Source: Tubiluchus corallicola (Eukaryota; Priapulida; Priapulimorpha; Priapulimorphida; Tubiluchidae). From it: DNA of 64,000 nucleotides. The DNA is taken from positions 22,885-86,884 of the forward strand of contig JAQGDQ010000211.1 of the NCBI GenBank assembly GCA_030141605.1. Reading direction: 5' to 3'. Position numbers and translations under genes: made by a program. Shown in pieces: positions 3,379 through 41,939 of this stretch. The stretch's first letter is position 1. Each line of letters starts with the position of its first letter. The notes under the pieces were generated by a model. The model was not told the DNA's origin and made no database searches. It saw nothing but the letters and a program-made list of their open reading frames with translations.

Positions 3379-3575
3379 ATGGCTCCTGCCGTGGAGGAAA
3401 GTTTGAGTGCAAAAGCAAAATGCAAAAATGATCTGTCTTTAAGTCAGTTAGTGGTGGATGGAGTACCTAAGTATGGGTGGCGTGTAAGGCTCGATAAAAT
3501 ATTTCCAGAACATTGGAAACCCTTTGACGTGCCTCGATTACACGAACTTGTAGCATTGTTCTGGTTGATGATTAG
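3379..3575 (+). CDS. GBA2: GBA2 exon 1
   Basis: Residues 1-65 plus two bases of Arg66. [16 protein letters not shown] matches the conserved N-terminal block of GBA2. Donor GTGGGT at 3576. ATG 3379 has A at -3 and G at +4; ATG 3370 is three codons upstream in frame. Confidence 0.85.
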
Positions 3576-15262: not shown

Positions 15263-15349
<87 letters not shown>

Positions 15350-18300
15350 GCTGCTGCTGCTGCTGCTGTTGTTGTTAATTAATTAATAATTATTAATAAA
15401 TCCTACTGTTTTTTGTCACCAAGGGCAGCTGTTTCTTAGAATAGTCTATCATGTCTGAGACAGTTTCTATGGTTATAAGATAAACAGTTAATAAAAGTCT
15501 ACAGTCACTTTTTTTTCAGGGAGGGTTACAGATTTACAGAATAGCTTACTATCTCCAAGACAATTTCTATGAGTAGAATACAAATGTTTAATAAAAGCCC
15601 ACAGTTTTTTTATCAGGGAGGGTGGCTGTTACGTAGAATTGCTTACCATGCTTGAGACATTTCTTACAGGTAGACTACAAAATTATTAATAAAAGCCTGC
15701 CATCTTTTCAGGGAGGGTGGCTGTTTTGTAGAATTGCTTGTAACCATGCCTGAGACATTTCTTACAGGTAGACTACAAAATTATTAATAAAAGTCTGCCA
15801 TCTTTTCAGGGAGGGTGGCTGTTTCATAGAATTGCTTACCATGCCTGAGACATTTCTTACAGATAGACTACAAAATTGTTAATAAAAGCCTGCCATCTTT
15901 TTATCAGGGAGGGTGGCTGTTTCGTAGAATTGCTTGTAACCATGCTTGAGGCATTTCTTACAGGTAGACTACAGAATTATTAACAAAAGCCTGCCGTCTT
16001 TTTACCAGGGAGGGTGGCTGTTTCACAGAATCTTTCCTCACCGACAATCTTGAATCTGGCGTAGGAGGAGTAAAAATACATCAGCAGTTTAAAGGGATGC
16101 CTTGTGTATACGGAATTGCAGCCGCTGCAAAGGTGCGTCTGATTAAGAATGTTAAATGTACATCAGTTTCTCTTAATTCAATAATAATGTTCAAAGATGG
16201 CGACACGAACCCTGTTATCTGAACATGCGTAAAATGGCGACATCTATTTTGCGAAAGGGGAAGCACTATACGCTAGCGCTTCTTTTAAAGTTTCGTGGTT
16301 GACACTTCTCACTTGGTTACATTCATTGTGCTAAGCACGTCGACGAAAAATTGCTCCTTGTGATTTATTGATTTTTCGTTACTTTCGTTGTCTGTAGAAA
16401 GGAGTTGATATCTCGCACAAGCTGTCGTGGAATCCTAGGGGCGATGGTGCTGACATCTGGATGGAGTTGTATCAGTCCGGATGCTTGTCAGGAGAATGCG
16501 GTACCGATCGGATTTTTTTTACGTTATTGTTAAAAAATGAGTGTTTAAGATATTGATTTTTTTATACACAATTTTAATACCTGTCCTACGGTTAATAGAT
16601 TAATATTTCCTTAACATCTTATAATATAATACTATTAGTATTGGAATCGAGAATCTTTGTTAAAATATTGCATAGCTGCCCAAAAAGCAAAGTGTTTCAG
16701 TTTCAGAGTTTCGGATTTAGCATTCCTTCCATTTTATCAGGGGCGGCTCGTAGCTAAAATTCGTGGGGTGCTGCTTCAGAAAATTTTTAGCCATTGTTTT
16801 AATTCTGTGTAAAACGAAACAAACATATGTACTTTTAATGTCGTAAATTGTAATTGTAATTTTTTACGAACAAAAATATGAAAGTTTATACATAAGCTTG
16901 ATAAAATTCTAAACAAGGAAAATGTTTTGACTGTGACAACACACACTGTGTGAGCGACAGTACTTTCTCTACCTAGCAGCAGATGCTGGCAGTGCAGAGT
17001 ACAGCGTGTTATCTCAGACATGTGTGCATGGCTGCATGCGCAAAACAGCCAAACATGCCACTGTGCTGGTCTGTCAAGCAAACAGTACTACGCTCTCGTG
17101 ATCTGGTTCAGTACAAGTATGAAGAAAGAACTAAAGGAAAAAAGACTTATTATATTGAATATTACCAATCATATTGAGTGATAATAGGGGGTGCTGCAGT
17201 TCCACAGTATCTATACACAAGCCGCCACTGTATTTTACTGTAATAGCCATTTTTATCTATTATTACTGTAACACCGCGAACTCTGTAATAACTGTTCAGT
17301 GTGGCCGAAAAAAGTACTTTTGCACATACTGTCTGTTCATTTGTTATTAAGAATTGAATTCAAATTAAATTGAGTTTAGCAGTTTCAAATTAAATCAGAC
17401 TCAAACTTGACACGAATTGGAACATTCAATGCATTCGAACGTGAATTTAAACGTTCCACGTACAGCGTTAGTATTTACTGCTTACTGATTATTGCAAGTA
17501 TTAGATTCTTCTGGGTCGTAGTGCCGTTCTTGTATGTTTATGTACTGCATTTTTGTATATTATGTTCTTATGATTACGTTCGTAGGTCAGAGTGTGGGTC
17601 GCATTGCCGTTCTTGTATGTTTACATACTAAATTTTTGTATATTAAGTTCTTATGATTACGTTCGTAGGTCATAGTGTGGATTGCAGTGCCGTTCTTGTA
17701 TGTTTACGTACTGCATTTTGGTATATTATGTTCTTATGATTACGTTCGTAGGTCGGAGTGTGGGTTGTAGTGCCGTTCTTGTATGTTTATGTACTGCATT
17801 TTTGTATATTATGTTCTTATGATTACGTTCGTAGGTCAGAGTGTGGGTTGTAGTGCCATTCTTGTATGTTTATGTACTGCATTTTTGTATATTATGTTCT
17901 TATGATTACGTTCGTAGGTCGGAGTGTGGGTTGTAGTGCCGTTCTTGTATGTTTATGTACTGCATTTTTGTATATTATGTTCTTATGATTACGTTCGTAG
18001 GTCAGAGTGTGGGTTGTAGTGCCATTCTTGTATGTTTATGTACTGCATTTTTGTATATGATGTTCTTATGATTACGTTCGTAGGTCGGAGTGTGGGTTGT
18101 AGTGCCGTTCTTGTATGTTTATGTACTGCATTTTTGTATATTATGTTCTTATGATTACGTTCGTAGGTCGGAGTGTGGGTTGTAGTGCCATTCTTGTATG
18201 TTTATGTACTGCATTTTTGTATATGATGTTCTTATGATTACGTTCGTAGGTCAGAGTGTGGGTTGTAGTGCCGTTCTTGTATGTTTATGTACTGCATTTT

Positions 18301-21300
18301 TGTATATTATGTTCTTATGATTACGTTGGTAGGTCGGAGTGTGGGTTGTAGTGTCATTCTTGTATGTTTATGTACTGCATTTTTGTATATTAAGTTCTTA
18401 TGATTACGTTCGTACGTCAGAGTATGGGTTGTAGTGCCGTTCTTGTATGTTTATGTACTGCGTTTTTGTATATTAAGTTCTTATGATTACATTCGTAGGT
18501 CGGAGTGTGGGTTGTAGTGCCGTTCTTGTATGTTTATGTACTGCGTTTTTGTATATTAAGTTCTTATGATTACATTCGTAGGTCGGAGTCATGTAACCAA
18601 GCGAGGCCAGGAAATAGCATGTGCCATTTCTTCGCGAGTCACAGCGTATCCTGGTACTCCTGCGTCTCTTCAGATGTGCTGCGTCTGGGACATGCCCAGG
18701 ATCCAGTTTGGGGCAAAGCGACAGTTTTACTATAGGTGCGTTTCTACAGACGTGTACTGTTTCATGTTGTACTGCATCTTCATATTTTGCTCTTCTTTGG
18801 CTGTTTGCTGAATTATTTTTGAGTGTAAAATTTTTAGTCGTTACTAGGAAGTGCGTAGGATAGGGTCTGTTTGTCTGCCTGTCTGCTTCAAATACCCACA
18901 CCAGTCAGTCAGTCAGCCAGTAGGTGCTTCAGAATTCTCTGACGACAGTCATTTTCAGCATTGTCTGTCATCATGTCTCTGGAGTCACATGTCCTCTAAC
19001 ATGACCTTCCTGATCACTTTACTCCATGCTGCCCTGTCACCCGCAACCTCCCATGTCTCTGTATTTTTGATATCTAATGGTGTGTTGATAAGATCTTTTT
19101 GGATGAAATTGATGTAAGTTTGCAGCAGTCGTTAGTTTTTTTCTTTCTGCAGTGCTTCTTTGAAAGCTGATTTTAATGGACTGTCATCTGGTAGTCGTAT
19201 AACATGTCCTGTCCATCTTAATCTTCTCCTTTTGATTTTAATTGTCCATTCCTCTGTCTTGACTTTATTGTACAAATCCTGGTTTGATATTTTCTTTGGT
19301 CATTTTATTCCTAGAATGTTCCTGCAGTTTCTTCTTTGAAATGCATCAATTTCTGACTCGTGTTGTGCTTTGATTGTCCATAATTCTGAGTTATTGAGAA
19401 ACACAGTTTCCACAAGTGCAGCAAAGATTTTTAATTGGCAGATCTAAACTGTTCCTCTTACTTTTAAAAAATTTTTGTCTATTTTCGGAAGGAAAATTTG
19501 AACCGATTTTTCTACGATTCGCGTAGAGAGAAACCATAATGCAACGAATACCTTTTCAAAGAATTTTCGTGTAAGATATATTCCTCTGCATTGGCAGATA
19601 AGCTATCAGACAACATGTTTAGAAATAAAACCGTCACCACTAACTATGAATTACATTATAATGCACAAACAGAGTATTACACACCCACAATGTGCTGGGG
19701 CTAAGATACAGAGACAAACACATGGGGGTATTTGATGGAGAGATTTGTGCCATCACCTCTGTAGATAGCAGGTGAAATGATGAAAATTATTAAAAAACAA
19801 ACTCATATGTTGGTTTGCCGGACAAAAACGGGCTTGCCGGACAAAAACGAACAAAAAAGTCCGAATTTGCCGACTGTCCATATTTTCGGATAGTAAACTA
19901 ATACAGTAGGCTCGTGGTAATGTAGAATCAATCGCTTAACTGTCTCAGAAACATCTGCTGCGGGCCACTGCTATGCAAAAAGTATGTAAAAACGGTCAGC
20001 AATTGACTCAAATAACTCTGCATAATTGACTCTATTGACTCTGATGTAATGATGTAAGCAAAGTGACGGCCCGCCAAGTGTCTACGAGCTCGTGAAATAA
20101 CGGACTGTGTCCTTAGTAATGCCGGACTTTTTAACGGTCCAGATTTTGTCCGAATTTTCCAATAGCCATAAAAGTGAGGTCCTTCAAACCGAGATATGAG
20201 TGTATAAACAGGTAATACCAGAAACCTTAGCTCGTTTAGAATGACTCCTGCTTGTTTCATACACGGTCTGCACTTGTTTATGTGATTTAAATCAGTTTTT
20301 GGAAAAATTTCCAAGGTAAATTTGTTTAGACCGTTTTACTTGCTATATTAATATTAAACTATTTGATAATTGGCTCTTTAAGGGCAGGCAGGATGATTTT
20401 TCATATACTACCCCATTTTCAAGTACGGTAAAAAATATACATTTCAACACAATTAATACTGTGAAAGCATTTCAGATAATTAAATAATAGATTAAAATCT
20501 TAATTAATGCCGTGCTAGCCCAACTATTGGTGACATCACAAACTAACATAATTTTCAACAGCAAAAATATTCCTTAAGCGTGTTGCACGTGTTTGCGAAA
20601 GCAAAAATTGAAGTACAGTGCTACTGTGAGATATTCAGTGCATTGCACTAAAAATTAGCAAGTTTTAAGATAAAAATTCAAATTTTTAAATTTACGCTAT
20701 GTTCATATATGAGCTGTCGAATATGTGTAGTTCGTCACAAACTAACATGTGAAGTGAGAGGTACAGCACCTGTTTTTTGGGCATTGCGTTTCCGAAATAC
20801 AGGCGCTGGTGCCCGTCTAACTATCGAATGGCGAAATGCGTGTAACAGCAAAGAACTAGTGGCGCTAACGCGAAAATGTGTTTGTGTGGTAATAACTGTT
20901 TTACGTAAGTCATTTTTGAAATAGTATGTTTCATGTCAATCTTTTAAAGAATAGGCTGTTTTGATGTACAGTTTAAGATTGGGTCTGGTTTTGCTTTAAG
21001 TGTGCACTTTTCTAGAATTTTTGCGCATAATCTTTTAAATTTGATAGAAAGGCAGAAATTTTTTTATTGGCTGTTGTGTCCTCTTCAGGCAATAAAATGG
21101 ACTGAATGGAATTTTTGCAGGCGCTACACTCGCTGGTTTGGCAGGAACGGCAACGCAGCACCAGCTCTGTGTGCATATGCTTTAAACAATTACAGAAAAT
21201 GGGACAAAGCAATAAACGCCTGGATCAAGCCAATACTCACAGATACGTAAGTTCACTTTTTACTTTTAAGGTGTGGTGGATGACTCTGGTTTAAAAGATT

Positions 21301-24300
21301 TCTGGTCTTGCTGTATGAGATTCGCGAAGTGCCAATAATAAAGTACATGGGCACTCTTCTAAACACCGAAGATGATCATAAAAGTAGAAAGGAACAAGCA
21401 GTGAATGCTTTCTTCAACGCAAGAATGTATTAACCGGCAAGAAATTAAGTCTTAACGTAAGACTTCGATTATTTAATACTTACGTTACCAGCATATTTAT
21501 GTACAACAGCGAAACTGGGGGTTTAACGATCACTCAAGAAAAGCAGATTGACACATTTCATAGAAGTCTTCTTAGAAAAGTTTTAAAGATAAGGTGGCCA
21601 TACATAATCAAAAATGAAGATTTATACACCAGAACGAAAGAAACTTCTTGGAGTTGAAAAGTGAAGATCTGAAGATTAAGATGGCTAAGACATCTTCTAA
21701 GATTACCAAATGAAACACCAGTAAGAATCATCTTAAAAGAAGCCTTAAAACCTTGGAAAAACCACCTGGCAAAACTAAAAACAACTTGAATAGCTAAGAT
21801 AAATAAAAATCTTCAATCAAATCTAACTTCAGGAATAAAAGAACTTGCTGTTAGCTGCAGATAGGAGTGGGTGGAATACTCTAAAAATGATAAAGCCTCA
21901 ATATCAACAAAAATGTAATGGGACCTTGAAGGTTGCTACATGTTAGCATCGCATAGTGCAATTCATCACTCTTGAATGTTATTGTATCATTTAATGATCA
22001 CTTTTTGTTGGCACAAGTGTTTGTGGTGTATTACACAACAGTTGACATTCACTGCAACTGTTTGTGGTCTGTTAGACAACAGCTAACATTCACTGTAACT
22101 ATTTATGGTGTGCTAACTGCAATTCTTGAGCTATTAGTCGTTCTAAGTGACTTGATAAAGGAAGACCGGACCCAATTGTAAACTGTAGCTACCCTAATAA
22201 TAAAACAAAACGTAATAAATGGGACGTAATAAAATAATAAAAACGAGACGTGCAGATAAGAGAAACGGAAAATAATAATACTACACTTTCTAATCACAAG
22301 TACTTCAAGGTGTGGGAATAGCTGAGCGGTCATATTGTGTGACGGTCATAGTTCCACAGTTAAGCAACAGTGAATCTGGTAAGAAAACTCAATTCTGCCT
22401 GGCACGAATCACCTCTCTTAGGTAAGTTAAAGACAGACATACATCTCATGTCTGACCAAAGCTAAAGCATTTCAACTAGTTTTGTATCTCATCCTAGAGC
22501 ATTATTCCTGCTAAAGAGCTAACTACGTTCCCATCCCACCACAATCGAAAAAGAAAAATTTAAGTAGCCAATACAGTACCATCTTGCATGTCTGTATAAA
22601 AAAGGGTGTTGGAAATATAATCACAAATCGAATCAAATCAGAAATGGGCACACATTTGTTTTTTAAAGGAAAACTGCAAGATTTTTCATATCCTACCCCA
22701 TTTTGAAGTACAGTAAAAACTACACATTTTAAGACCTATGACATCGCTGAAGCATTTGTGATAATTTAATAATAGCTTAAAAACTTAATTAATGGGCGGT
22801 GAGCCCCGCTAATGATGGCACAAATGAACATTATTTTCAGCATAAACATTCCTAGAACATGTTTGCGAAAGCGAAAATTGAAGTACAGTGCTACTGTAAG
22901 ATATTCAGTGTGATATACAAAAAGTACATCAGAACTGAATAACATTTGAACTGACAGTTACAGCACCTGTTTTTTTGTTCAATGCATTTCTCAGATGTGG
23001 GCGCTAGTGCCCATCTAACCAGCGAATGGTGAAATAGCCGTGTGAAGGCGAAATTATGAAATTAGGTTTTGGTGGTAATAATTCTTTCAAGTAAGTCACA
23101 CTTGAAAATTTTCAATATTTTATAGGGTCGATTGTTTTCAGCTACAGTTTACGAGTGGGTCCTGTTTTCCTTTATCAAATGACTTAGATGGACTAATGGC
23201 TGAAGAATTGCAGTTAGTACACCATAAATACTAAATGGTGAATGAATGTCAGTTGTTGTGTAACACGCCACAAACAGTTACGTTGAATGTCAACTGTTGT
23301 GTAATACAGCACAAACAGTTATGGTGAATGTCAACTGTTAAGTAACACACCAAAAACACTTGTGGCAACAGAAAGTGTTCTTTAAATGATACAATAACAT
23401 TCAAAAATGATGAATTGCACTCTGCCGGTCTCATAAGCAATAGGTCAGGTCCAGTAATAAATTTGGGGTTGATTATTATAAAATATGGAAAATTCACATT
23501 TGACCAAATTTTTGCTGCTTTCTACTTTGCAGCATCAAAGCGTAGATTTAACTATGCCGACTTATGGACGGTTTTGGTTTGCAAGCACACGTATATAAAC
23601 ATATATAAATTTTGTTTAAATTTAGATGTCTACCTAGCTGGTACAAGTCAGCCCTGTTTAACGAGTTGTACTTCATATCTGACGGAGGCACAATCTGGGT
23701 GGATGTTGCGCAGGAAAAGGGCTTCTGTCCCGCACTCAATAACAATTCACAGCTCACTCACGAGTACGGCAAATTTGCTTACTTAGAAGGTACTGTATTT
23801 GTACAGGTTGTTGCAAAAGAAACAGTCAATCAAATTTAATGCTTTAAACATACGAATGCTGCAGCATTCAAACTCCATAGACATAGAACATTTATTTTCT
23901 CCAATTAGTTTAACATCAAAAGTTTTTTAAATATTAAGTAATTATAATCATGGAGTAGGGAAGGGAAGGAGAACAGGGTCATCTAGTCTCCTGCCCTTTC
24001 TTATAAATAGATTAGTATATTAAAAATTAACGGTGATGCTGCAGATAACAAAAACAAATAAGAAAAAATGATAAAAGAAACAGTATAAATGATACAAAAT
24101 ATCCAAAATATCTGAAAACAAAAAATAATAAAGTTATTACCTAAATCTAAACAAAACAATACAATTATTCAGTAATTAGGATTATTATATGTAGTAGTTT
24201 CAAATGGGGTCTTATTAACAGGGGAATTTGACCAAGGTTAGTGAGTAAAAAAAATAAGCACAAAAGTGTAATATGAGAAAAAGTAAGTATAAGAAGGAGC

Positions 24301-33300: not shown

Positions 33301-36300
33301 ATTACTAACCCTTACACTGCTGCCCAAGTTTTTCTTGTAAAGGATGAAGATTCTTGTAAAGCTCGGCACTAACCGCAATCACCCAAGTCTGTTTATTTCA
33401 CTGCTACGGCTATTGCAAAAACACCATAGAAAAGTTTAACAGCCGTGGGATTGGGGTTGCTTCGCAACAAGTAATGCTAACCAGCCAATCAGCGCCTGAG
33501 GGCAGGCGCATTCCATAATACTGTACTGTATAGTATGTTCTCATGCAAAATTGCTTGTTGATAGTTGGTGAAACGTATGTTTAGTTGATTGTTCTGCATT
33601 CTTATAAAATAATTACATATTGTGGATTACTAATATGACTTCTGAATATATGATGTGCTTATTTGTGTGGGTGTGTACGTGCATGCGTGCGTGCATTAAT
33701 GTGTGCCTGGATGTGTGTGTGTGTGTGTGTGTGCGTGCGTGCGTGCATGCGTACAAATAAAAATAATTTTCAATATTTGTGTTTATTAGCATGTGACTGT
33801 TTGTTTATTTACAAGATTCTGTTTTAGTAACACACCACCAGAAGTTATTGTCAAACATGTAAAAACCAAATTGACCCTGTTAAAAAGCAACTACGTAGTG
33901 AAAGGGTTAAGGTTATTGCGACTTGAGCCAATTGCTAATTTTTACATAAACACGATTAACGAATATTTAATCAGCTAGTATAGCGGAATTTTTGAGTGAA
34001 CTGCAGAAGCTTTGTTATGCTTCAGTGCTGACCTGGTGGATTTTTTTCCAAATATGTCGTCAGCGAGGTTCATTATTTTAGTGAGAGATAAGAATAACTT
34101 GAATTCCTTTTTAAGCAAGGCAATTCATGTGCGTATGTTACGTGGTAATTTCAATATTTTAAAATGTATATTAAAATAGAATGAATGTTGTGTGAGGGCT
34201 GGTTTTTCCTTTAACAACACCGTGACCATTCAGCTGCTTGCCCGTGTTATTCATTACAACTGTACCGTTTACTGTTGCAGGGCAGTATTACCGGTTTGAT
34301 AGCAGTAAACGTTCTTGTAGTAACAGCATCATGTCTGATCAGATGGCTGGGTATTGGTATCTCAAAGCTTGCGGAGTGGAAGATAACGTAAGTGCTTTTA
34401 ATTTCTAGTTAATTTTTTTGTGTAAATGCATTCCAGACAGGGGCATTTCAAGTATTTATCATGCCTTAGGCTGGTACAGTGGAACCGCATCTTACGAAAA
34501 CCCTATTATATGAAAAATTCAGCATTCGAATCGGGCTTCGAAGAAATTTCCTTCCCATTTAACGAAAAAATATTCAAGATACGAAAACGAAAATCGAAAT
34601 ACGAAAACCGACAGCGGTCCTCCCAGAATGAGTTTCGTAGCATCACGGGAATGCTTTGTTGTGCTCTTATTTCACGTGAACGCATTCAATAACCGTGGGT
34701 CTGAAAAATATGAAAGTGGTAGGAGTTTAAGTGCTATCTCAGGGTAGTTTGAGTGAAACCCTTCGACAATTGGTCATTAACGAACATATTTATTTCCGGT
34801 GGGTGCAATATTTACACTTTATGTGACTGTTTTCGGGGGGCTGGAATGAATTACGCCATTTATATGGTAAATCTTGTCTCATAATACTAAAATTCCAAGA
34901 TATGAATTAATTTCGTATCTGGAGGTATCACTGTAGTTCTGTCCCGCCCATCTCTATTGTGAATTTATAGTTGTTTATGTAGTGAGAAGCTTAAACAATT
35001 ACTTGTGGTGTATTAGAAACACTATTAGCTTCTAGTTGCTCATTATATTTGCAGTGCAGTGCTCTTGTATAGAAGCAGGCTGCACAACTGCTTGTTATTT
35101 AATACCTTGCACCTGTTTGCTATTTAAGAGTCATTCCGTGAGAAAATCAGCAAAATAGTGGAAGGTGACAAATCACCGATTTTGTTCATATTCACAGGGT
35201 TTGATGGTCCCCTCAGATGTACTCCACAGCCAAAATATTAGATTTCAGAAATGAGCCGTTTCTGAGAAAAGCCGCCATTTTGATTTTTTTCGGATTTTGG
35301 CCATTTTGGCGTAAAAAATTGCCCATTATTTCTCACGTTATTACAGACAGTAAATGAGCGATCCAGCACTAGTTAATTGGTGATATATATAGTAGGGGTC
35401 TTACCCTACCGTACCATTATCGTTGCCAAATTGAACCTCCTTTTCAGTTGGTGTCATCAGATTGCAAAAGATACGTGTCTGCTGCTGCTGAATTTAGACG
35501 CCATTTTGAAATCCCCATAACTCCACTGGGGATTTGGGGGACTAATCAATATATTTTTATTTGCAGCTTGACTAGTCCTACAAATGCATGAAATAAAATT
35601 TTGGCCAGCGATCTCCCAAGAGTCCAGAATTTTTAGCCAAAGTTGCTCTTTTTTGCCATTTTCACAACCTTGACCTATATTTAGCTATTCGCTTTGGATG
35701 ACGGTGTTGCCATTAGAATCGATACAAAGTGCAGCAACGTCAATGTTTATAGTAATAATGGACTGGCTTTACATGTCTGGGCACTCCTAGCAACCAGGCC
35801 CCTCATCAGGGGCCGCATTCCCTTCGAAGGGCCCCTGTGACGATTACAACATAGTGATTTTTATAATCTGTATAAAACACGGAATAATTTCATGTACATA
35901 ATAACAGTTTCGTGTACAACCTGGGCACTCCTAGCAACCAGGCCCCTCATCAGGGGCCGCATTCCCTTCGAAGGGCCCCTGTGACGATTACAACATAGTG
36001 ATTTTTATAATCTGTATAAAACACGGAATAATTTCATGTACATAATAACAGTTTCGTGTACAAGTGCTCGGGCTATATACCTATGGCCTGTGGATCAATA
36101 CGGGGGCCTCGGGAGGGCCCCACTGTCTTGACTGAAAAATAGACTTCAGTCAAAAAGGTTTAGTATCGCTTTGCTAAACAAGATTCTAAAGTAAGGCGGA
36201 CAAGGCGAGGCAAGGCACTATTTGTGAAATTGTGTTGAAACCGCCGCGAGCATCGAATATAACATGTTGCGAACCAATTTTTAAAACGCGCACAGCTTTG

Positions 36301-39300
36301 TGTGGTCTTGTATTCAACAGGCGAATAGTTGTCAGTCCCTGATATTTTTCCTCAAATCAATTCAAGTTAATAGTTAGTTAGTTACTAATACCTTGGTGTG
36401 ACAACTTCGACAACCAGACTTCTGCTTACTAACAACGGGCGTTAACAAAAAAACTGGTTAAGAAACGCAGCAAAGGCCAGTACGACCCTGCCTCGGACTC
36501 TGTGTAACGTATGTTTCAAGCCATTCGCTCATATTGTATTTAACCGCCAGGTTTCCACCGTCTCGTAAAGATATACGCATATACACCGACTACCATATTC
36601 AACTAAACTCTAACGAGAATCAGGGCGCTGACGCTTATAATCGCAAATTTTCAAAATAGCAAAAAGGCAACAACAAATTCTTTACGTCCACGACTATTTT
36701 TTATTCGCCAATATTCAATGAAAAGTCGCACTATAGTAAATAATAATAAGCTAATAATTGATAATACATACAGTAAGCTGCTACTATGTGTTGCTATGGT
36801 AACCTCCTTATCAAAAGAGACAGAGAGAGACACAGAGAGACAGAGAGAGAGAGTCACAGAGAGACAGAGAGAGAGAGTCACAGAGAGACAGAGAGAGTCA
36901 CAGAGAGACAGAGAGAGACACATAGAGATAGAGAGAGAGACACACAGAGACAGAGAGAGACACAGAGAGAGAGAGACACACAGAGAGGCAGATGGAGACA
37001 CAGAGAGACAGAAAGAGAGACACACAGAGAGAGACAGAGACAGACAGAGACAGAGAAAGAGACACAGAGAGAGAGACAGAAACAGAGAGAGAGAGAGAGA
37101 CAGAGAGAGAGAGACAGAGAGAGACAGACAGAGACACAAAGAGACACAGAGAGACAGAGAGAGACAGAGAGAGGCACAGAGAGACGGAGAGAGACACAGA
37201 GAGACAGAGAGAGACACAGAGAGACACATAGAGACAGAGAGACTCAGACACAGTGAGACAGAGAGAGACACAGAGAGACACAGAGAGACAGAGAGAGACA
37301 CAGAGAGACAGAGAGAGACACAGAGAGAGACAGAGAGAGAGACAGAGAGAGACACAGAGAGACAAAGAGAGACACAGAGAGGCAGATGGAGAGACAGAGA
37401 GAGACACACAGAGACAGAGAGACACAGAGAGACAGACAGAGACATAAAAAGAGACAGAGAGAGACACAGAGAGACAGAGACAGAGAGAGAAACACAGAGA
37501 GAGACACAGAGAGACAGACAGAGACACAAAGAGACAGAAAGCGACGGAGAGAGACACAGAGAGACAGAGAGAGGCACAGAGACACAGAGAGAGACAGAGA
37601 GAGACACACACAGAGAGACAGAGAGAGACACAGAGAGGGACACAGAAAGACAGAGAGACAGACAGAGACAGAGACAGAGAGTGACACAGAGAGAGACACA
37701 GAGAGACAGAGACAGACACAGAGAGAGAGAGAGGACACAGAGAGACAGAGAGAGACAAAGAGAGACAGAGACAGAGAGAGACAGAGAGAGGCACAGAGAC
37801 ACAGAGAGAGACAGAGAGAGACACAGAGAGACACACACAGAGAGACAGAGAGAGACACAGAGAGGGACACAGAAAGACAGAGAGACAGACAGAGACAGAG
37901 ACAGAGAGAGAGACAGACAGAGACACAGAGAGACAGAGAGAGACAGAAACTGTAATTTATCGTTTCTTTTTGAAATTTGCATTTTTTATTCAGAATTATT
38001 AATAATTCGTACTAATTTTTTTACGATTTATGTCACATTCAAGATCGAATCTCGTCAATTTATGGACGAGCTGGCCAAAATTTTATTAATGATCTAATAT
38101 GCCTGGTCAAGCTGTAAATAAACATATATTAATTATACTTCAAATACCCGCCCCAGTGGAGTTATGAGAATTTTAAAACAAGGTGTCATTCAGACTGTAG
38201 CAGACACGCATCTTTCATGAGCTCATGATACCTACTGAAAGAGAATCTCAATTCATCAAACTCAATGTGGCAATAGGGCAAGACCCCTACTATATATACC
38301 ACAGAGCAACTAGTCCTGGATCATTCATTTACTGCCTGTAATGATGTGACAAATATAGGTCATTTTTTTACGTCAAAATGGCCAAAATCCGAAAAAAATC
38401 AAAATGGCGGCCTATCTCCGAAACGGCTCATTTTTGATATCTAATATTTTGGCTGTGGGGTACATCTGAGGGGATCATCCAACCCTGTGAATATGAACAA
38501 AATCGGTGATTTGTCACCTTCCACTATTTTTTGACTTTTGCATGGTTTTCTCGCGGAATGACTCTTAATATTTATATAAAAGCTGTAGTCAGTAACTGCC
38601 TGTGGTGTGTTATAAAATGCGCCCTTCACATGAATATGAAAGTTTACACATTTTCCGAGGAGAATGAGAATTTTTCTTAAAATGTGACGCCTTCAAACGT
38701 TGGCACCCTAGGGCCTAGGCTATAGCCTAGTTAACCTATTGATTAATACGTCTCTGGTTACAGACACAATATAATGAACCCGCAGTTATTAAATTTTGAA
38801 TCTAAACCTCCCTGAAAGGAAATATGTTAAAAGTCTGGATTTGAACCTGGCACCTTTGGACTAATACTACCAACCAGAACGGTTGGTTCTAAACAACAAC
38901 TTTCTTGGTTGTTTTTTTAAGCAGTCTGACATACTTTAAGCAGATATCTGCAGCTTTCAGTGACAGGGTTAATACTAGCATGGGGTGTGTGGCAGGCCTG
39001 GCACCTATCTCATTACCAAGAATAATTCTTTAGAATGAAATCAAATGTGTCTTGGTCAGAGTTGATTCATGTTACCCTTTCCTCATGAATCAAATACCTG
39101 GAAGCACCATGAGAACTAAAACGTCTCAGATAATTTTCTAGGCTGCCACCCACCAACTTACTAATCAGGTTTGGCATCGCTTAACTTCGGTTGCTAAGTT
39201 CCTACCATGGAGATTTGATTTACTTCTGTTGTCGTAAAGGTACTTCCGGAGCAGAACGTCCGGACGGCTCTCAACACGGTCTTCAAGTTCAACGTGGAAT

Positions 39301-41939
39301 TGTTCGAAGGAGGAACAATGGGTGCCGTGAATGCAATGAAGCCAGACGGGAAGCCAGAGATCTGCTGCCTACAAGCCGAAGAGAGTTGGACGGGAACGTC
39401 GTATGCCGTCGCCGCCACCATGATACAAGAGGTGAGAGTGTTATTGTGGTCTTTTGTATCGGTTCTCTTCCACGGGGACGTCGTATGCCGTCGCCGCCAC
39501 CATGATACAAGAGGTGAGAGTGTTATTGTGGTCTTTTGTATCGGTTCTCTTCCACGGGGACGTCGTATGCCGTCGCCGCCACCATGATACAAGAGGTGAG
39601 AGTGTTATTGTGGTCTTTTGTATCGGTTCTCTTCCACGGGGACGTCGTATGCCATCGCCGCTACCATGATACAAGAGGTGAGAGTGTTATTGTGGTATTT
39701 TGTATCGGTTCTCTTCCACGGGGACGTCGTATGCCGTCGCCGCCACCATGATACAAGAGGTGAGAGTGTTATTGTAGTCTTTTGTATCGGTTCTCTTCCA
39801 CGGGGACGTCGTGTGCCGTCGCCGCCACCATGATACAAGAGGTGAGAGTGTTATTGTGGTCTTTTGTATCGGTTCTCTTCCACGGGGACGTCGTATGCCA
39901 TCGCCACCACCATGATACAAGAGGTGAGAGTGTTATTGTGGTCTTTTGTATCGGTTCTCTTCCACGGGGACGTCGTATGCCGTCGCCGCCATCATGATAC
40001 AAGAGGTGAGAGTGTTATTGTGGTCTTTTGTATCGGTTCTCTTCTTCCATGATCGTTTAGTCATACATTGCATTGGTAAAAATACACTGAACTGCAGTTT
40101 TACAGTTCAAGTCTGTTTGTTTTAAAATAAATCGCTTTTCTCTTTTGACTGTTCCAACCATTAATAAGAGATATGAATGATAAGAGATAACCTTTTCCAG
40201 TTAGCCAAACTTTGAAGCAGTTTAAAGCCTGCTTCACCAGAGACAGTACATACGTCCTCCTTCCTAAAGAGCTAGAATCGGTACGGCAAATGAAACCACC
40301 CAGACTATTATTACAGTCAAACCTCGTTGTAATGCCAAGTCTAGGACACCACTAAATATGGCAGCTGAGATGGTGGTAAGGTGAGGTTCATTAAATATCA
40401 AAGCCATTGTACTGTGTCACCTCTATTTTGTTTCCTAGTTAATTTTAATATGTCACAAATAGTATAATATTATTATACAGTGTTCCCTCGCTACTTCGCG
40501 GTTCGTTTATCGCGGGTTTTCAAAAGTATTAATGTCAAATATTTATCGCTGTTTCGCGGGTTTTTGCGGTACTCCGTCTAAAGTATTTTTGCACATGCGT
40601 GGTACGTATTATACAGTAATGTATAGATTTGATGAATTTTGCATAGAAAATCACAAAATGTATAAAAATGTATTAAAAAAATTAATTCTAGCATTAAAAG
40701 AATATTATAAATGATAAAAATTACTATTTGCAATAAATAGTGTATTTATTCGGCCGATGAATACACACCAAAAACGAAATGTAGTACTTGCGCCCGCTTG
40801 AGATGCTACTTGCTGACGTGAAATTGTACAGAACACATAAAGACTTAAAATAATGTATAACTACTAAAATAAGTATAGCGTCCCTACTTCGCGGAAATTC
40901 CCTTATTTAACCGATAAGTGAAGGAACATTGTACATGCAACAATACATGTGTTATACTGTACGTTTTTGCTGCATTAACAAAATTAATGCAGGTGTAGTT
41001 CTACGGTGATGCATTGCAAAACTTTTAGGTAACACAATGTGTCATAGCAGTCCTGTCAATCTTGCGAAATACTGCTGTTTCCTCGTAAGAGAAACATGCA
41101 GCTACGCAGCCCACCCGTGCTCCCAACGTAACATTACTAGATGATTATGACTACAAATAGCTGCCCCATATAACTTGACCTTGAGTCAAACAGCTATTGA
41201 ATTTACATCAATTCAGTACTGAACTAAAGCTACGCAATTCTTGTACTTTATTCCTTGTTCAAAACCCCAACATTCACTTTCATACAGTTACTTGCAACAA
41301 GACATAAATCTTAATTCAAACACCATAATTGTTTTTTCTGTTCAGTGGCCATTGTTTGTACAATAGAATGGCTGTTTTGCAGCAACAATTCAACATACTT
41401 TATCTTGGCTGGTGTTATAATGGTATATTTATCATGTAAAACAGACTTTCGTTGCAGCAGATACGTTAGCAGATGGCGGTAGGCGAATTTGGCAGTATTC
41501 TCTGTATTTAATACATTCTCGAAATCAGTACAGGGCAATAGTTGACATTATGGCGAGGCTGGCGTTATAACAGGTGGCAGTATAATGAGATTCGATTGTG
41601 TTATTATTATCATTATTATTACCTCAATGCTTTGAATAAATGCCATTTAGTTAAGGTGATACCTGTCTTATTTTTGATCAACGATTAAATTCTTTTGTCA
41701 TTTTAATTTTAGAAATTTTCTTGATCTTGCAGGGATTAGTCGAGCAAGGTTTCAAGACAGCCGAAGGCGTGTACAGAAGCTGCTACGACCGTCTGGGACT
41801 TGGTTTCCAGACTCCGGAAGCTTTGTATGCCAAGCGGAAGAAGTTTCGGGCACTTGCTTACATGCGGCCGCTGTCCATCTGGGCCATACAGTGGGCAGTT
41901 GAAAGAGTTGTAGACTTGCATAAGTTACATTCGTCATAA
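3379..41939 (+). CDS. GBA2: GBA2, non-lysosomal glucosylceramidase (GH116), 18 exons
   Basis: GBA2 hydrolyses glucosylceramide to glucose and ceramide at cytosolic faces of ER/Golgi/plasma membranes. Exons: 3379-3575, 8036-8124, 9375-9490, 10375-10599, 13803-13918, 16009-16132, 16398-16500, 18582-18735, 21121-21246, 23626-23789, 25611-25715, 26951-27058, 30170-30321, 31559-31662, 32044-32186, 34281-34387, 39240-39431, 41733-41939. All junctions are GT-AG, all phases match, and the sum is 2532 bases (843 aa plus stop; human GBA2 is about 927). The N-terminal beta domain spans about residues 60-400 and the (alpha/alpha)6 catalytic domain about 415-843. By comparison with the family, the nucleophile is Glu471 (motif YLEG) and the acid/base is Asp620 (ADQTYD), 149 residues apart as expected. 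The sugar-binding Glu804/Arg814 region is kept. Start: ATG 3379 has a better context than ATG 3370; an acceptor-like TTTCAG at 3356 leaves open an extra 5' exon. Introns are packed with transposons. Confidence 0.93.
3867..7375 (-). mobile_element. non-LTR retrotransposon (CR1/Jockey-type LINE), 5'-truncated, open reverse transcriptase
   Basis: A minus-strand reading frame runs without a stop from about 7375 to 4834. It starts in the C-terminal part of an APE endonuclease (CGDININ, like the GDxN motif) and continues through a reverse transcriptase with [31 protein letters not shown] and the catalytic FADDTNLF. The C-terminal LWNSLP motif is present. The 3' UTR runs to 3867 and ends in a (TCTATG)n tail. 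The first part of the endonuclease and any ORF1 are absent. Absence of stops over about 850 codons implies a young insertion. It is antisense in GBA2 intron 1 and is itself interrupted by a DNA transposon at 4191-4645. Confidence 0.9.
4191..4645. mobile_element. 455-bp TA-target MITE nested in the LINE 3' UTR
   Basis: Termini CCGTATTTTCCCGTGTATAA / TTATACACGGGAAAATACGG, flanked by TA on both sides (4189-4190, 4646-4647). The related LINE fragment at 23876-24365 has the uninterrupted site, which confirms the insertion. Internal shorter copies of the GGGTCTCTTATACA word lie next to each terminus. No transposase. It is of Tc1/mariner/pogo type by its TA target (inference). Confidence 0.88.
8036..8124 (+). 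CDS. GBA2: GBA2 exon 2
   Basis: An 89-base exon, acceptor TTTAATTTCAG and donor GTACGT. Ends with [17 protein letters not shown], which matches the GBA2 block preceding the Gly-rich PLGGIGGG motif. Confidence 0.9.
8163..8524. mobile_element. 362-bp hAT-type MITE
   Basis: Ends TAGGGTTGCCA / TGGCAACCCTA, with imperfect 8-bp flanks (GGTATGAT and TGTATGAA). Contains repeated GGGACAT words and no ORF. In GBA2 intron 2. Confidence 0.7.
9375..9490 (+). CDS. GBA2: GBA2 exon 3
   Basis: A 116-base exon, acceptor GATTTCCAG and donor GTACAG. It encodes [19 protein letters not shown] and GMYEHKTV, the Gly-rich signature of the GBA2 N-terminal domain. Confidence 0.93.
9810..9840 (-). ncRNA. hammerhead ribozyme-like core, left arm
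   Basis: The minus strand reads CTGATGA, then TGACAGC-AGTA-GCTTTGT, then CGAAAC. The middle can form a short, imperfect stem II. No canonical GUC/GUH cleavage triplet is seen at the expected place, so it may be inactive. Confidence 0.35.
10110..10140 (+). ncRNA. hammerhead ribozyme-like core, right arm
   Basis: The plus strand reads CTGATGA, TGACAGC-AGTA-GCTCTCT, CGAAAC. GACAGC can pair with GCTCTC (five of six pairs) around an AGTA loop, in the stem II position. The following ACGTTT could form a minimal stem III. The cleavage triplet is not evident. Confidence 0.4.
10245..10330 (-). repeat. tRNA-like (SINE head?) fragment
   Basis: The minus strand has GGTGCCTAGTTCAAATCTAG, which is B-box-like. 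Similar GGTGCCAGGTTCAAATCC occurs at 38836-38905 (minus). No complete cloverleaf was seen. Confidence 0.3.
10375..10599 (+). CDS. GBA2: GBA2 exon 4
   Basis: A 225-base phase-0 exon (75 codons), acceptor CGTATTTTAG and donor GTGAGT. It includes [23 protein letters not shown] and [13 protein letters not shown], all aligned with human GBA2. Confidence 0.93.
10676..11240 (+). repeat. interspersed repeat, copy a (second copy at 12303-12480)
   Basis: TGCAGTTGATGCTG(T)ATGAATG, CTTCTTATGTAC and the following ACACT(A)TACTTT and GATGAACT words recur in the same order at 12303-12480. Family unknown. Open frames here have no recognisable product. Confidence 0.5.
11690..12290 (+). repeat. TTAA-flanked 0.6-kb repeat, copy 1
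   Basis: Shares GCGAAAATTGAAGTACAGTG, GAGGTACA(A/G)CACC and the TTTTGCTTTAA end with copies at 20382-20995, 22667-23170 and 62783-63401. The left end is diverged; the right end is followed by TTAA at 12291-12294. Confidence 0.65.
13541..13712 (+). repeat. TTG/TGC/TTA-rich microsatellite
   Basis: Compound trinucleotide repeat (TTG, CTG, TTA units) about 90 bp upstream of the exon 5 acceptor. It produces a spurious Leu-rich open frame. Confidence 0.85.
13803..13918 (+). CDS. GBA2: GBA2 exon 5
   Basis: Begins after TTGTTTACAG and ends before GTACGA. Encodes [20 protein letters not shown] and [10 protein letters not shown]. It ends with two bases of the Arg248 codon. Confidence 0.92.
13919..15240. 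other. GBA2 intron 5, first part: no gene seen
   Basis: AT-rich sequence. A stretch at about 14560-14640 (GACCAAGGGTCACCAAGTCAACC) recalls the LINE 3' UTR wording GACCATAGGGTCATCTAGTC at 3970, so it may be an old relative. Nothing else was recognised. Confidence 0.4.
15262..15376 (+). repeat. (TTG)n microsatellite
   Basis: About 100 bp of uninterrupted TTG, then CTG units, ending GTTGTTAATTAATTAA. Confidence 0.95.
15400..16050 (+). repeat. minisatellite containing the exon 6 acceptor and exon edge (about 7 copies)
   Basis: The unit is 87-101 bp. CAGGGAGGGTGGCTGTTTC-type words occur at 15527 (diverged), 15614, 15709, 15807, 15905 and 16006, with a more diverged start near 15410. Each unit holds a pyrimidine-rich acceptor (TTTTxTCAG) plus about 20-25 bases resembling the start of exon 6, then TTGCTTACCATGCCTGAGAC, TTTCTTACAGGTAGACTAC and ATTAATAAAAGCCTGCC. 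The last unit is the true acceptor. Confidence 0.92.
16009..16132 (+). CDS. GBA2: GBA2 exon 6
   Basis: A 124-base exon encoding [19 protein letters not shown] and ending [13 protein letters not shown]; donor GTGCGT. The acceptor TTTTTACCAG is the last of a tandem series of near-identical acceptors (15400-16050), and the first 20-25 exon bases are repeated in that array. Only this copy continues into the conserved coding sequence. Confidence 0.88.
16398..16500 (+). CDS. GBA2: GBA2 exon 7
   Basis: A 103-base exon after GTTGTCTGTAG, encoding [20 protein letters not shown] and [14 protein letters not shown]. Its donor GTACCG is weak, but the phase (1) fits exon 8 exactly. Confidence 0.88.
16738..17230. 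mobile_element. 493-bp hAT-type non-autonomous element
   Basis: Ends CAGGGGCGGCT / AGCCGCCACTG, flanked by imperfect 8-bp repeats (CATTTTAT, TATTTTAC). A second copy in the opposite orientation enters the window end at about 63752. In GBA2 intron 7. Confidence 0.8.
17505..18590 (+). repeat. 83-bp minisatellite containing the exon 8 acceptor and exon edge (about 13 copies)
   Basis: Strict 83-bp period (TGCCGTTCTTGTATGTTTA at 17522, 17605, 17688 and so on). Each unit ends with ATGATTACGTTCGTAG followed by GTCGGAGT or GTCAGAGT, which are the intron 7 acceptor and the first eight bases of exon 8. Units are highly alike, so the array is young or homogenised. The final unit runs into exon 8. Confidence 0.95.
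18582..18735 (+). CDS. GBA2: GBA2 exon 8
   Basis: A 154-base exon encoding [19 protein letters not shown] and [16 protein letters not shown]; donor GTGCGT. Its acceptor (ATTACATTCGTAG) plus the first eight exon bases form the edge of an 83-bp minisatellite lying just upstream. Only the last copy continues as exon. Confidence 0.9.
18950..19470 (-). mobile_element. LINE reverse transcriptase C-terminal relic
   Basis: The minus strand translates, with one in-frame stop, to [38 protein letters not shown] and [20 protein letters not shown], the typical C-terminal end of a non-LTR retrotransposon polyprotein. It is a relic in GBA2 intron 8. Confidence 0.75.
19904..20202. mobile_element. possible TA-target MITE remnant
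   Basis: Right end GAGATATGAGTG followed by TA, and left end TA-CAGTAGGCTCGTGG. The right end resembles pogo/Tigger-type termini, but the two ends match each other poorly. GCCGGAC/GTCCGAA words are repeated around it. Confidence 0.3.
20382..20995 (+). repeat. TTAA-flanked 0.6-kb repeat, copy 2 (best ends)
   Basis: A 614-bp copy flanked by TTAA on both sides (20378-20381, 20996-20999). Left end GGGCAGGCAGGATGATTTTT, right end GGGTCTGGTTTTGCT. The ends are not clear inverted repeats. No conserved ORF among copies. Confidence 0.7.
21121..21246 (+). CDS. GBA2: GBA2 exon 9
   Basis: A 126-base exon after GAATTTTTGCAG with donor GTAAGT, encoding [20 protein letters not shown] and INAWIKPIL. Conserved end of the N-terminal domain and linker. 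Confidence 0.93.
21310..21900 (+). mobile_element. LINE reverse transcriptase C-terminal relic
   Basis: Shifting frames read [57 protein letters not shown] and [20 protein letters not shown], the same type of C-terminal domain as the relic at 18950-19470. Several frameshifts and stops. In GBA2 intron 9, directly after exon 9. Confidence 0.78.
22667..23170 (+). repeat. TTAA-flanked 0.6-kb repeat, copy 3
   Basis: Begins after TTAA with GGAAAACTGCAAGATTTTTC and ends near CCTGTTTTCC. Shares GCGAAAATTGAAGTACAGTG with the other copies and carries internal deletions. Confidence 0.65.
23225..23400. repeat. diverged tandem/inverted CACAACAGTTGACATTCA-type repeat (with 21972-22120)
   Basis: The words GTGTAACAC..CACAAACAG and GAATGTCAACTGTTGTGTAA recur every 40-45 bp here on the minus strand. 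At 21972-22120 the same words are on the plus strand (ACAACAGTTGACATTCACTG). It is an inverted pair of short tandem arrays flanking copy 3 of the TTAA repeat. Confidence 0.6.
23430..23600 (+). repeat. interspersed repeat, copy a (inverted copy at 28890-29030)
   Basis: GGTTGATTATTATAAAATAT through GGTTTGCAAGCA is found in reverse complement at 28890-29030. It lies just upstream of exon 10. Family unknown. Confidence 0.6.
23626..23789 (+). CDS. GBA2: GBA2 exon 10
   Basis: A 164-base exon encoding [20 protein letters not shown] and ending EYGKFAYLE. The last full codon is Glu471, the predicted catalytic nucleophile. Acceptor TTAAATTTAG, donor GTACTG. Confidence 0.94.
23876..24365 (-). mobile_element. 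LINE 3' UTR fragment, same family as 3867-7375
   Basis: Begins with the CATAGACATAGAACATTTAT tail and follows the 3' UTR of the large LINE closely up to CTTACAAGTTATGTACTA. Severely 5'-truncated. It lacks the MITE, so it shows the empty site near 24186. Confidence 0.88.
24400..25078 (+). mobile_element. retroelement 3'-end repeat (inverted copy at 59225-59760)
   Basis: Ends GTGTGAAAATAAATTCATAG followed by TTCATAGTTC units, a typical non-LTR tail. Most of it recurs in the opposite orientation at 59225-59760 (shared GTGAGTGTGTTAATGACCGT and ACTTAAGTGGGGGAGAAGAG words). Confidence 0.65.
25611..25715 (+). CDS. GBA2: GBA2 exon 11
   Basis: A 105-base exon encoding [20 protein letters not shown] and [14 protein letters not shown], the best conserved helix region of GH116. 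Acceptor TTTCTTTTTTAG, donor GTATGT. Confidence 0.95.
25923..26400 (+). repeat. 54-bp minisatellite (about 9 copies)
   Basis: The unit begins CCATAATAACTTACAATT and contains GCAGGCAACGGGGCCCAGTA. The period is exactly 54 bp (25923, 25977, 26031 ... 26355) with few substitutions. Because 54 is a multiple of 3 and the unit lacks stops in two frames, both strands look open. Not adjacent to a splice site (exon 11 ends at 25715). Confidence 0.95.
26951..27058 (+). CDS. GBA2: GBA2 exon 12
   Basis: A 108-base exon encoding [18 protein letters not shown] and SVPHDMGDP. The PHDxGDP motif is typical of the family. Acceptor GACCTTTTAG, donor GTTAGT. Confidence 0.93.
27080..27725 (+). repeat. 0.65-kb interspersed repeat, copy a (inverted copy at 60000-60660)
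   Basis: GCAGTGAxxACCGTTA, GCACCCTGGAGGGTG and CTGATTTACGTTTGTGTAGG-like words to GATTTTTCTGAAACCAACTT match the minus strand of 60000-60660 over most of their length. No ORF. Confidence 0.7.
27726..28150. other. GBA2 intron 12, AT-rich stretch with no recognisable feature
   Basis: A-rich sequence with no ORF, known repeat or terminal inverted repeats that I can see. Confidence 0.4.
28151..28661. mobile_element. 511-bp MITE with CAGGGATGAGAAT termini
   Basis: Ends CAGGGATGAGAAT / ATTCTCATCCCTG, flanked by an exact 6-bp TAACTT on each side (28145-28150, 28662-28667). The interior holds GGGGGCCTAGGTGGCCCC. A partial copy is at 1339-1470. hAT-like by terminal bases, although an exact 8-bp duplication is not seen. 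Confidence 0.8.
28890..29030 (-). repeat. interspersed repeat, copy b
   Basis: Reverse-complement match to 23430-23600, from GCTTGCAAACCAAAGCCGTC to ACAATCAACAC. Confidence 0.6.
29130..29578. mobile_element. 449-bp TA-target MITE
   Basis: Perfect ends CCGTATATACTCGCATATAA / TTATATGCGAGTATATACGG, flanked by TA (28-29 and 79-80 of 29.1 and 29.5 kb). Internal extra copies of ATATAAGCCGACC lie near 29200 and 29505. The architecture resembles the MITE at 4191-4645. In GBA2 intron 12. Confidence 0.9.
30037..30135 (+). repeat. 20-bp tandem repeat (about 5 copies)
   Basis: Unit TGTATGATCTATGGTCTAAA, ending 34 bp before exon 13. It does not include the acceptor. Confidence 0.92.
30170..30321 (+). 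CDS. GBA2: GBA2 exon 13
   Basis: A 152-base exon encoding [39 protein letters not shown] and LKDMWPIIL. Donor GTTAGT. A 20-bp repeat lies just upstream and a 129-bp duplication just downstream. Confidence 0.94.
30328..30588 (+). repeat. 129-bp tandem duplication starting beside the exon 13 donor
   Basis: Copies start at TTTAATGCAATT (30331 and 30460). Each contains GGTTCGAGTCTCAGTCAAGG, a tRNA B-box-like word. The first copy begins about nine bases after the donor; the second is preceded by TTGG, so the donor itself may just be included. Confidence 0.85.
31160..31550 (+). repeat. TTGTTATGTTTTGTATA-type AT-rich tandem repeat
   Basis: Imperfect units of about 15-25 bp (TTTGTTATGTTTGTTA, TTTTGTATAT), ending against the acceptor tract of exon 14. 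All three plus frames are long and open but of low complexity. Confidence 0.9.
31559..31662 (+). CDS. GBA2: GBA2 exon 14
   Basis: A 104-base exon encoding [19 protein letters not shown] and [15 protein letters not shown]. Asp620 in ADQTYD is the predicted acid/base catalyst. Acceptor TTATATTGCAG, donor GTACCG. Confidence 0.94.
32044..32186 (+). CDS. GBA2: GBA2 exon 15
   Basis: A 143-base exon encoding [20 protein letters not shown] and [13 protein letters not shown]. Acceptor TTGTTCTGCTAG, donor GTAAGA. Confidence 0.94.
32258..32739 (+). mobile_element. 482-bp TA-target MITE (CAGTCAACCTCGG family), copy 1
   Basis: Left end CAGTCAACCTCGGATATAAG; right end ATACCCGAGATGGATTG; TA at 32256-32257 and 32740-32741. 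Contains many copies of (C)CCTTATA. Related copies at 43986 and 54823. pogo/Tigger-like termini. Confidence 0.85.
32805..33225 (+). repeat. interspersed repeat, copy a (inverted copy about 46680-47075)
   Basis: GTGTAATTAGTAA..ATT and GATCACTTCACGCATGGGTG match, in reverse complement, GATCACTTCATGCTTGGGCG-type sequence at 46985-47060. The outer parts are more diverged. Confidence 0.45.
33660..33765 (+). repeat. (GT)n / GTGC microsatellite
   Basis: GTGTGTGTGTGTGTGTGC followed by GTGC units. Confidence 0.9.
34281..34387 (+). CDS. GBA2: GBA2 exon 16
   Basis: A 107-base exon encoding [20 protein letters not shown] and [15 protein letters not shown]. Acceptor TACTGTTGCAG, donor GTAAGT. Phase 0 at its 3' end. 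Confidence 0.94.
34477..34933. mobile_element. 457-bp TA-target MITE (pogo/Tigger-like)
   Basis: Left end CAGTGGAACCGCATCTTACG; right end (reverse complement) CAGTGATACCTCCAGATACG; TA on both sides (34475-34476, 34934-34935). In GBA2 intron 16. Confidence 0.82.
35777..36064 (+). repeat. perfect 144-bp tandem duplication
   Basis: The copies 35777-35920 and 35921-36064 appear identical. Each starts CTGGGCACTCCTAGCAACCA and contains the hairpin GGCCCCTCATCAGGGGCC and the palindrome CCCTTCGAAGGG. Identity implies a very recent duplication or an assembly duplication. Confidence 0.95.
36814..37950 (+). repeat. (GAGACA)n-type satellite, about 1.1 kb
   Basis: Imperfect AGAGACAGAGAGAGACACAG units, almost pure purine plus C on the plus strand. 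It gives very long open frames on both strands (Arg/Glu/Thr-rich on plus; Ser/Leu/Cys-rich on minus) that are compositional artefacts. Confidence 0.97.
38836..38905 (-). repeat. tRNA-like (SINE head?) fragment
   Basis: Minus strand: TTGGTAGTATTAGTCC, then GGTGCCAGGTTCAAATCC, an A-box-like then B-box arrangement. No full tRNA fold was confirmed. Confidence 0.35.
39240..39431 (+). CDS. GBA2: GBA2 exon 17
   Basis: A 192-base phase-0 exon encoding [16 protein letters not shown] and [13 protein letters not shown]. Its final 36 bases together with the donor (GAG|GTGAGA) and about 46 intron bases are repeated seven more times downstream. Use of the first donor (39432) joins in frame to exon 18. Reading on into the repeat gives about 51 foreign codons and a stop near 39587. 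Confidence 0.92.
39395..40040 (+). repeat. 82-bp minisatellite containing the exon 17 3' edge and donor (8 donor copies)
   Basis: GAG|GTGAGAGTG donors occur at 39429, 39511, 39593, 39675, 39757, 39839, 39921 and 40003, exactly 82 bp apart. Each unit carries the last 36 exon bases (ACGTCGTATGCCGTCGCCGC through ATACAAGAG), the donor and about 46 intron bases (ending TCGGTTCTCTTCCACGGGG). Differences between units are only a few single bases. Confidence 0.97.
40478..40932. mobile_element. 455-bp TA-target MITE (pogo/Tigger-like)
   Basis: Left end CAGTGTTCCCTCGCTACTTC; right end (reverse complement) CAATGTTCCTTCACTTATCG; TA on both sides (40476-40477, 40933-40934). In GBA2 intron 17. Confidence 0.82.
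41733..41939 (+). CDS. GBA2: GBA2 exon 18 (terminal coding exon)
   Basis: A 207-base exon after TTGATCTTGCAG, encoding [26 protein letters not shown] and [20 protein letters not shown], then TAA. Glu804 and Arg814 correspond to the glucose-binding pair known in bacterial GH116. The tail after the conserved core is short (HKLHSS) compared with human. Confidence 0.95.

Follow-up and report, generated by a model that had tools for sequence, protein, structure and literature searches.

The GBA2 gene analyzed here is crossed at its splice junctions, two acceptors and one donor, by three mutually unrelated minisatellites, as located by TRF and exon mapping. The existence of these arrays is far beyond chance, and they are a real example of an already known kind of repeat, the 'mirages' first described in lancelets. 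We consider it quite probable that the three are mirage-type minisatellites that arose from chance tandem duplication across splice junctions and expanded later. What follows from this arrangement for splicing, whether exon edges attract such duplications, and how the arrays compare with known systems are discussed below.

Three arrays across the splice junctions of GBA2

The window is the whole 64,000-nucleotide stretch of DNA that was analyzed, part of a genome assembly of 2344 contigs and 343.5 Mb, with a G+C content of 36.2% over 247 kb of fetched loci, overlapping stretches counted. Exon mapping places a complete GBA2 gene (GH116 glucosylceramidase) at 3370..41939 on the forward strand, with 18 coding exons and 17 introns. 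Its coding frame, 846 aa upon translation, is uninterrupted, and a Pfam search finds both GH116 domains, PF12215 and PF04685. After merging, TRF reports 21 arrays in the window, 14 of them within GBA2, where they occupy 13.8% of the gene's length. An earlier note on this DNA described three of the 17 introns as having acquired independent, unrelated arrays that each include both sides of a junction; TRF and exon mapping confirm that description, and the periods it gave (about 95, 83 and 82 bp) agree with those found by TRF (95-98, 83 and 82 bp). The arrays, the exons they enter and the dispersed repeat related to the third array lie in the window as follows.

15420..16031, + strand: array 1, with a TRF core at 15609-16031; units of 95-98 bp, 4.3 copies in the core
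16009..16132, + strand: exon 6, into which array 1 reaches 23 bp
17512..18589, + strand: array 2, 83 bp x 13.0 by TRF; the unit carries 8 nt of exon 8 along with the 3' splice site
18582..18735, + strand: exon 8, into which array 2 reaches 8 bp
39240..39431, + strand: exon 17, whose last 42 bp are repeated in array 3
39390..40044, + strand: array 3, 82 bp x 8.0 by TRF
40013..40251, + strand: dispersed-repeat copy, whose first 34-36 bp lie within the array-3 unit

The unit of array 1 includes the 3' splice site and about 23 nt of exon 6, and older, more diverged copies, recognized by eye, extend upstream of the TRF core back to about 15420. Array 2 occupies about half of its host, intron 7 (1,070 of 2,081 bp), and introns 5 and 17, the hosts of arrays 1 and 3, measure 2,090 and 2,301 bp. 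Each unit of array 3 combines 42-43 nt of exon 17, the donor GAG|GTGAGA and 39 nt of intron. All three arrays span the boundary, as mirage-type minisatellites do, with coding overlaps of 23, 8 and 42 bp for arrays 1, 2 and 3, and both boundary types are affected, two arrays sitting at acceptors and one at a donor. The AG or GT is intact in 6/6 units of array 1, 12/13 of array 2 and 8/8 of array 3 when the authentic copy is counted. The arrays thereby supply 24 extra splice sites (5 + 12 + 7), 23 of which keep their AG or GT, the exception being one of the 12 extra acceptors of array 2 (AG kept in 11); this is the mirage pattern of splice signals in many but not all units. Within array 2, adjacent units are 0.88-0.92 similar toward the ends vs 0.94-0.98 in the middle.

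The units differ in origin. Genome searches, in which very common words were skipped, found units 1 and 2 nowhere outside GBA2, and unit 3 elsewhere solely via its intronic 34-36 bp. These belong to a dispersed repeat that occurs in at least four other places at 74-85% identity; three of those four copies align mutually over about 480-500 bp, and the similarity to array 3 begins 6-8 nt into the intron. Judged by these alignments, the intronic half of array 3 is derived from the dispersed repeat, which is new here. Two other copies of the repeat, the ones printed, read TTCCACGATCG, and exon 17 reads GGACGGGAACG. The joint of array 3 reads TTCCACGGGGACG, its units joining exon ACGGG to repeat TTCCACG, and the window's own last copy of the repeat has diverged at the breakpoint, where it reads TTCTTCCATGATCG. 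At the founding breakpoints of array 3, exon and repeat seem to have 3 bp in common (ACG), as in microhomology-mediated duplication.

The window contains further features beside these arrays. Intron 1 of GBA2 holds a retroelement on the opposite strand (4834-7371, -), whose open frame of 845 aa encodes a reverse transcriptase domain (PF00078). An inverted repeat in intron 9 (21951-23425), with 165-nt arms that are 84% complementary and separated by 1145 nt, carries 41-bp minisatellites in each arm and resembles a foldback element. A 144-bp tandem duplication in intron 16 (35777-36063, by TRF) has two copies of 100% identity and is either very recent or an assembly join. At 50828-52138 on the reverse strand, an intronless open frame of 437 aa, in which Pfam finds lipoyl and 2-oxoacid dehydrogenase acyltransferase domains, is a possible retrogene.

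Consequences of the extra splice sites

In-silico splicing yields the normal 846-aa protein only from the copy that adjoins the exon body, in each of the three arrays. The other 24 copies are damaging: 23 add a stop inside the extra repeat sequence, and one, the extra donor of array 3 that comes first (39514), shifts the frame, so that translation ends within the last exon and the C-terminus is no longer the normal one. The damaging sites are not the weaker ones. Scored with a crude matrix built from GBA2's own sites, in which one of 17 training donors was misplaced through a wrong exon 1 end, 11 of the 12 extra acceptors of array 2 equal the authentic acceptor to one decimal, four of the five in array 1 outscore it, and all eight donors of array 3 are identical across the nine scored bases. 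Site strength does not account for the choice, and therefore the splicing machinery must select by position, presumably through exon definition; we infer that the exon-proximal copy is the one used in splicing.

The origin of such arrays can be pictured in two steps. The founding event would have been a chance tandem duplication with one breakpoint in the exon and the other in the intron, and the array would have grown afterwards through slippage or unequal exchange. After a duplication of this kind, one intact junction would stay beside the exon body and the remaining copies would become intron, an outcome that should be near-neutral provided that the spliceosome keeps to the exon-proximal copy. 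The recurrence in GBA2 needs no special cause, because the minisatellite load is high and duplications across junctions would be nearly neutral. The earlier note had suggested that redundancy of splice sites is either tolerated or selected, and the two halves of this suggestion part ways: toleration is plausible because an intact junction is always left and the reading frame stays open, and selection is unsupported because none of the 24 extra sites would leave the protein intact.

With 24 rival sites in a single gene, most of them equal to the real ones, GBA2 offers a ready test of how the spliceosome chooses among near-identical sites. A wider proposal, which we advance tentatively and with slightly more doubt than belief, is that a protostome genome acquired mirage-type arrays independently and on a wide scale, that the exon-proximal copy is used regardless of the number or strength of its rivals, and that the protein-damaging decoys of GBA2 could serve as a natural test of exon definition versus first-AG scanning.

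Arrays and exon edges in GBA2 and beyond

Random placement of the 14 arrays within GBA2 gives a mean of 2.9 junction crossings against the three observed (P(>=3) = 0.59), in a test that took exon 1 as 3340-3573 where the gene model has 3370-3575. When placements with more than 45 bp of coding overlap are forbidden, the mean falls to 0.63 crossings and P to 0.022, under a limit picked post hoc, after the data had been seen. Other arrays of the gene lie in introns, some of them close to exons, without crossing into them.

25917..26399, + strand: 54-bp array within intron 11, belonging to a dispersed element (25917-26538)
30323..30585, + strand: 129-bp two-copy duplication, beginning 1 bp beyond the end of exon 13 (TRF, and by eye)
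31172..31549, + strand: 63-bp array, stopping 9 bp short of exon 14, which it abuts without crossing (TRF)

The 129-bp duplication had been noted earlier as starting beside the exon 13 donor. It does start 1 bp past the exon, but the donor itself is not duplicated, because the second copy, inspected by eye, has no GT there. A 20-bp array ends 31 bp ahead of the same exon. A second array of the 54-bp unit lies on another contig (C153, locus L055) with 134 bp of common flank; the array thus came with the dispersed element and was therefore probably not seeded in GBA2.

Exon edges were also sampled elsewhere in the genome. The search listed 101 SNF, 93 myosin and 100 dynein matches, from which 82 rows were chosen by eye in 26 SNF and 30 myosin loci (80 of the 82 enter the array-load figure), the four SNF loci whose whole domain lies in a single frame (L009-L012) being excluded. 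Together with 20 dynein rows this made 102, of which 87 had the required 400 bp of flank and were processed and 15 were dropped; the 87 rows have 174 edges, 128 called and 46 uncalled. The sample is small, drawn from conserved genes, and includes some near-identical duplicate exons, such as two myosin copies on contig C917.

Arrays cover 2 of the 128 edges, or 1 of 128 strictly, because one edge in an SNF gene (contig C716) was miscalled inside an array; inspected by eye, the 43-bp array starts only beyond the donor, with about 20 bp between the two. The remaining case, in another SNF gene (contig C1988), is a 27-bp two-copy duplication across the donor, and is a young stage of the process behind the GBA2 arrays. 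Two further arrays come close without crossing: a small one past the donor of a dropped row (C51:247685), and a 20/60-bp array (L086 424-695, contig C45) that stops about 8 bp short of a dynein exon. Intronic points 25, 40, 60 and 80 bp from the edge are covered in 3, 3, 2 and 3 cases of 128, and those at 120, 160, 200, 250, 300 and 400 bp in 6, 6, 5, 2, 6 and 4. Edge and intron interior, at 2 against 6 of 128, do not differ significantly (P = 0.28), and within the 128-edge sample arrays are not overrepresented at the edges. The earlier note's suggestion that borders are preferred seeds for tandem duplication is thus unsupported on both counts, the three crossings equaling the random mean and the sampled edges showing no excess over interiors.

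The sampled SNF and myosin loci have an array load of 4.75% (7,392 of 155,568 bp), about a third of that of GBA2, and this load alone predicts 6.1 covered edges of 128. The 3 of 34 edges crossed in GBA2 compare with 1/128 at Fisher P = 0.029 and with 2/128 at P = 0.063, a comparison biased by the selection of GBA2 because of its arrays. We conclude that the three crossings mostly reflect the high array load of GBA2 (13.8% vs 4.75%); these values and the conditional placement result leave some probability to a modest local or edge effect.

The sampled gene families also drew attention to several duplications. Contigs C45, C2048, C2100, C2197 and C2212 share one set of dynein exon matches, with identical scores, indicating a large recent duplication or unmerged haplotypes. 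C1957:73573-74553 and C2045:99981-100961 each hold a complete dynein AAA_6 domain within a 4097-aa open frame, in contrast to the other dynein matches, which are split into short exons; a retrocopy or foreign DNA could account for them. On C917, two myosin-head exons (20757-21788 and 92822-93853) have identical scores on opposite strands, as in an inverted duplication or an assembly fold.

Four other explanations can be weighed against chance duplication and later expansion. Exon/intron borders might be mutational hot spots for tandem duplication here; co-transcriptional R-loops could be one cause, seeding by splice-site motifs another. The stricter Fisher comparison and the conditional placement test both lean this way, as do the three further GBA2 arrays that come to within 1, 9 and 31 bp of an exon and the arrays found near the dynein exon and past the SNF donor; with edges elsewhere no more covered than intron interiors and fewer than array load predicts, and with GBA2 chosen on account of its arrays, we regard hot spots as improbable. 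A still smaller chance attaches to selection maintaining the extra sites, as spares or as a regulatory splicing switch, to which the retention of AG or GT at 23 of 24 sites might be credited. Recent expansion by itself would be expected to leave the dinucleotides intact, because the units are on average 94% identical in array 2 and 97% in array 3; moreover, every extra site breaks the protein, and the exonic part of array 3 is less alike (95.5%) than its intronic part (98.7%), though two of the seven variable sites in the exonic part do no more than distinguish the authentic copy, close to the breakpoint.

Assembly error, which might have collapsed or inflated the arrays, has a precedent in one amphioxus globin array that was aberrantly assembled in a draft (PMC3087553). 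In GBA2 the copies differ from one another, the gene around them is intact, and three unrelated units share the same anatomy; we therefore think such an error very unlikely to explain the arrays, and copy numbers could nonetheless be off. Scarcely credible, finally, is the idea that tandem duplication created the introns themselves and left the arrays as its mark, the introns not being old ones to which arrays were added. In potato RdRp, cross-boundary duplication did produce a new intron (PMC4974935), and about half of intron 7 is array 2, but arrays 1 and 3 make up less than one third of their introns, and a new intron should be mainly repeat.

Host lineage and known systems

The mir-2 and bantam microRNA families mark protostomes. 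A genome search found seven mir-2 matches above the gathering score, in two clusters, and one bantam match at 55.9 bits, below the cut-off of 61 (E = 1.2e-8); because of these matches the host is most likely a protostome and not a lancelet. A myosin exon matches the PDB chains 3jbh (478.6 bits), Myosin-7 (473.5) and 5w1a (467.3), from tarantula, human and fly, about equally and leaves the lineage undecided. A search for COX1 (PF00115) found no match. The GFP family has no match in the genome, a weak test in that it lacked a positive control. A probable protostome host is new relative to the mirages of lancelets, cephalochordates being the taxon of first description and not a defining feature. 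Among the open-licence papers listed, judged mostly from titles and abstract openings, none reports mirages from a protostome; an abalone gene considered as a candidate has a minisatellite in intron 3, with boundary crossing not mentioned in the passages checked.

Boundary-crossing repeats are known from several organisms. In human paralogs, variable internal tandem repeats lie at exon-intron boundaries (PMC2812944), as the GBA2 arrays do; the human repeats can yield new introns or alternative transcripts in segmental duplications, whereas the GBA2 model needs no extra site. In potato RdRp, a new intron with splice signals inherited from the parent arose from a duplication over one intron-exon boundary (PMC4974935). 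Crossing of a boundary by tandem duplication and parental splice signals are common to both genes, whereas no new intron is evident in GBA2; duplication of this kind is one proposed first step of intron gain.

The earlier note knew of no named system of this kind, and one had in fact been described: amphioxus mirages are minisatellite-like tandem duplications across intron-exon boundaries, 5' and 3' alike (PMC3087553; see also PMC3902484), reported for Adh, TnC, globins and PGBD5 (PMC3902484). The BflGb6 globin array has six units on one haplotype and three on the other, BflGb9 has one duplicate, and Adh3 data together with globin RT-PCR suggest that regular splicing is undisturbed by mirages (PMC3087553). 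As in Adh3, TnC, BflGb6/BflGb9 and PGBD5, the GBA2 repeats span boundaries of both types and carry AG or GT in many units, and the middle copies of array 2 are homogenized like those of the amphioxus globin array. The amphioxus examples come from lancelets, with globin RT-PCR and known haplotype length differences, whereas the GBA2 arrays are known from the sequence of one assembly; GBA2 in turn has three arrays in one gene, one of them apparently founded on a dispersed repeat, in a host that is most likely a protostome. The mirage pattern thus appears to extend from lancelets to a likely protostome, which suggests that it follows minisatellite abundance and needs no lancelet-specific cause.
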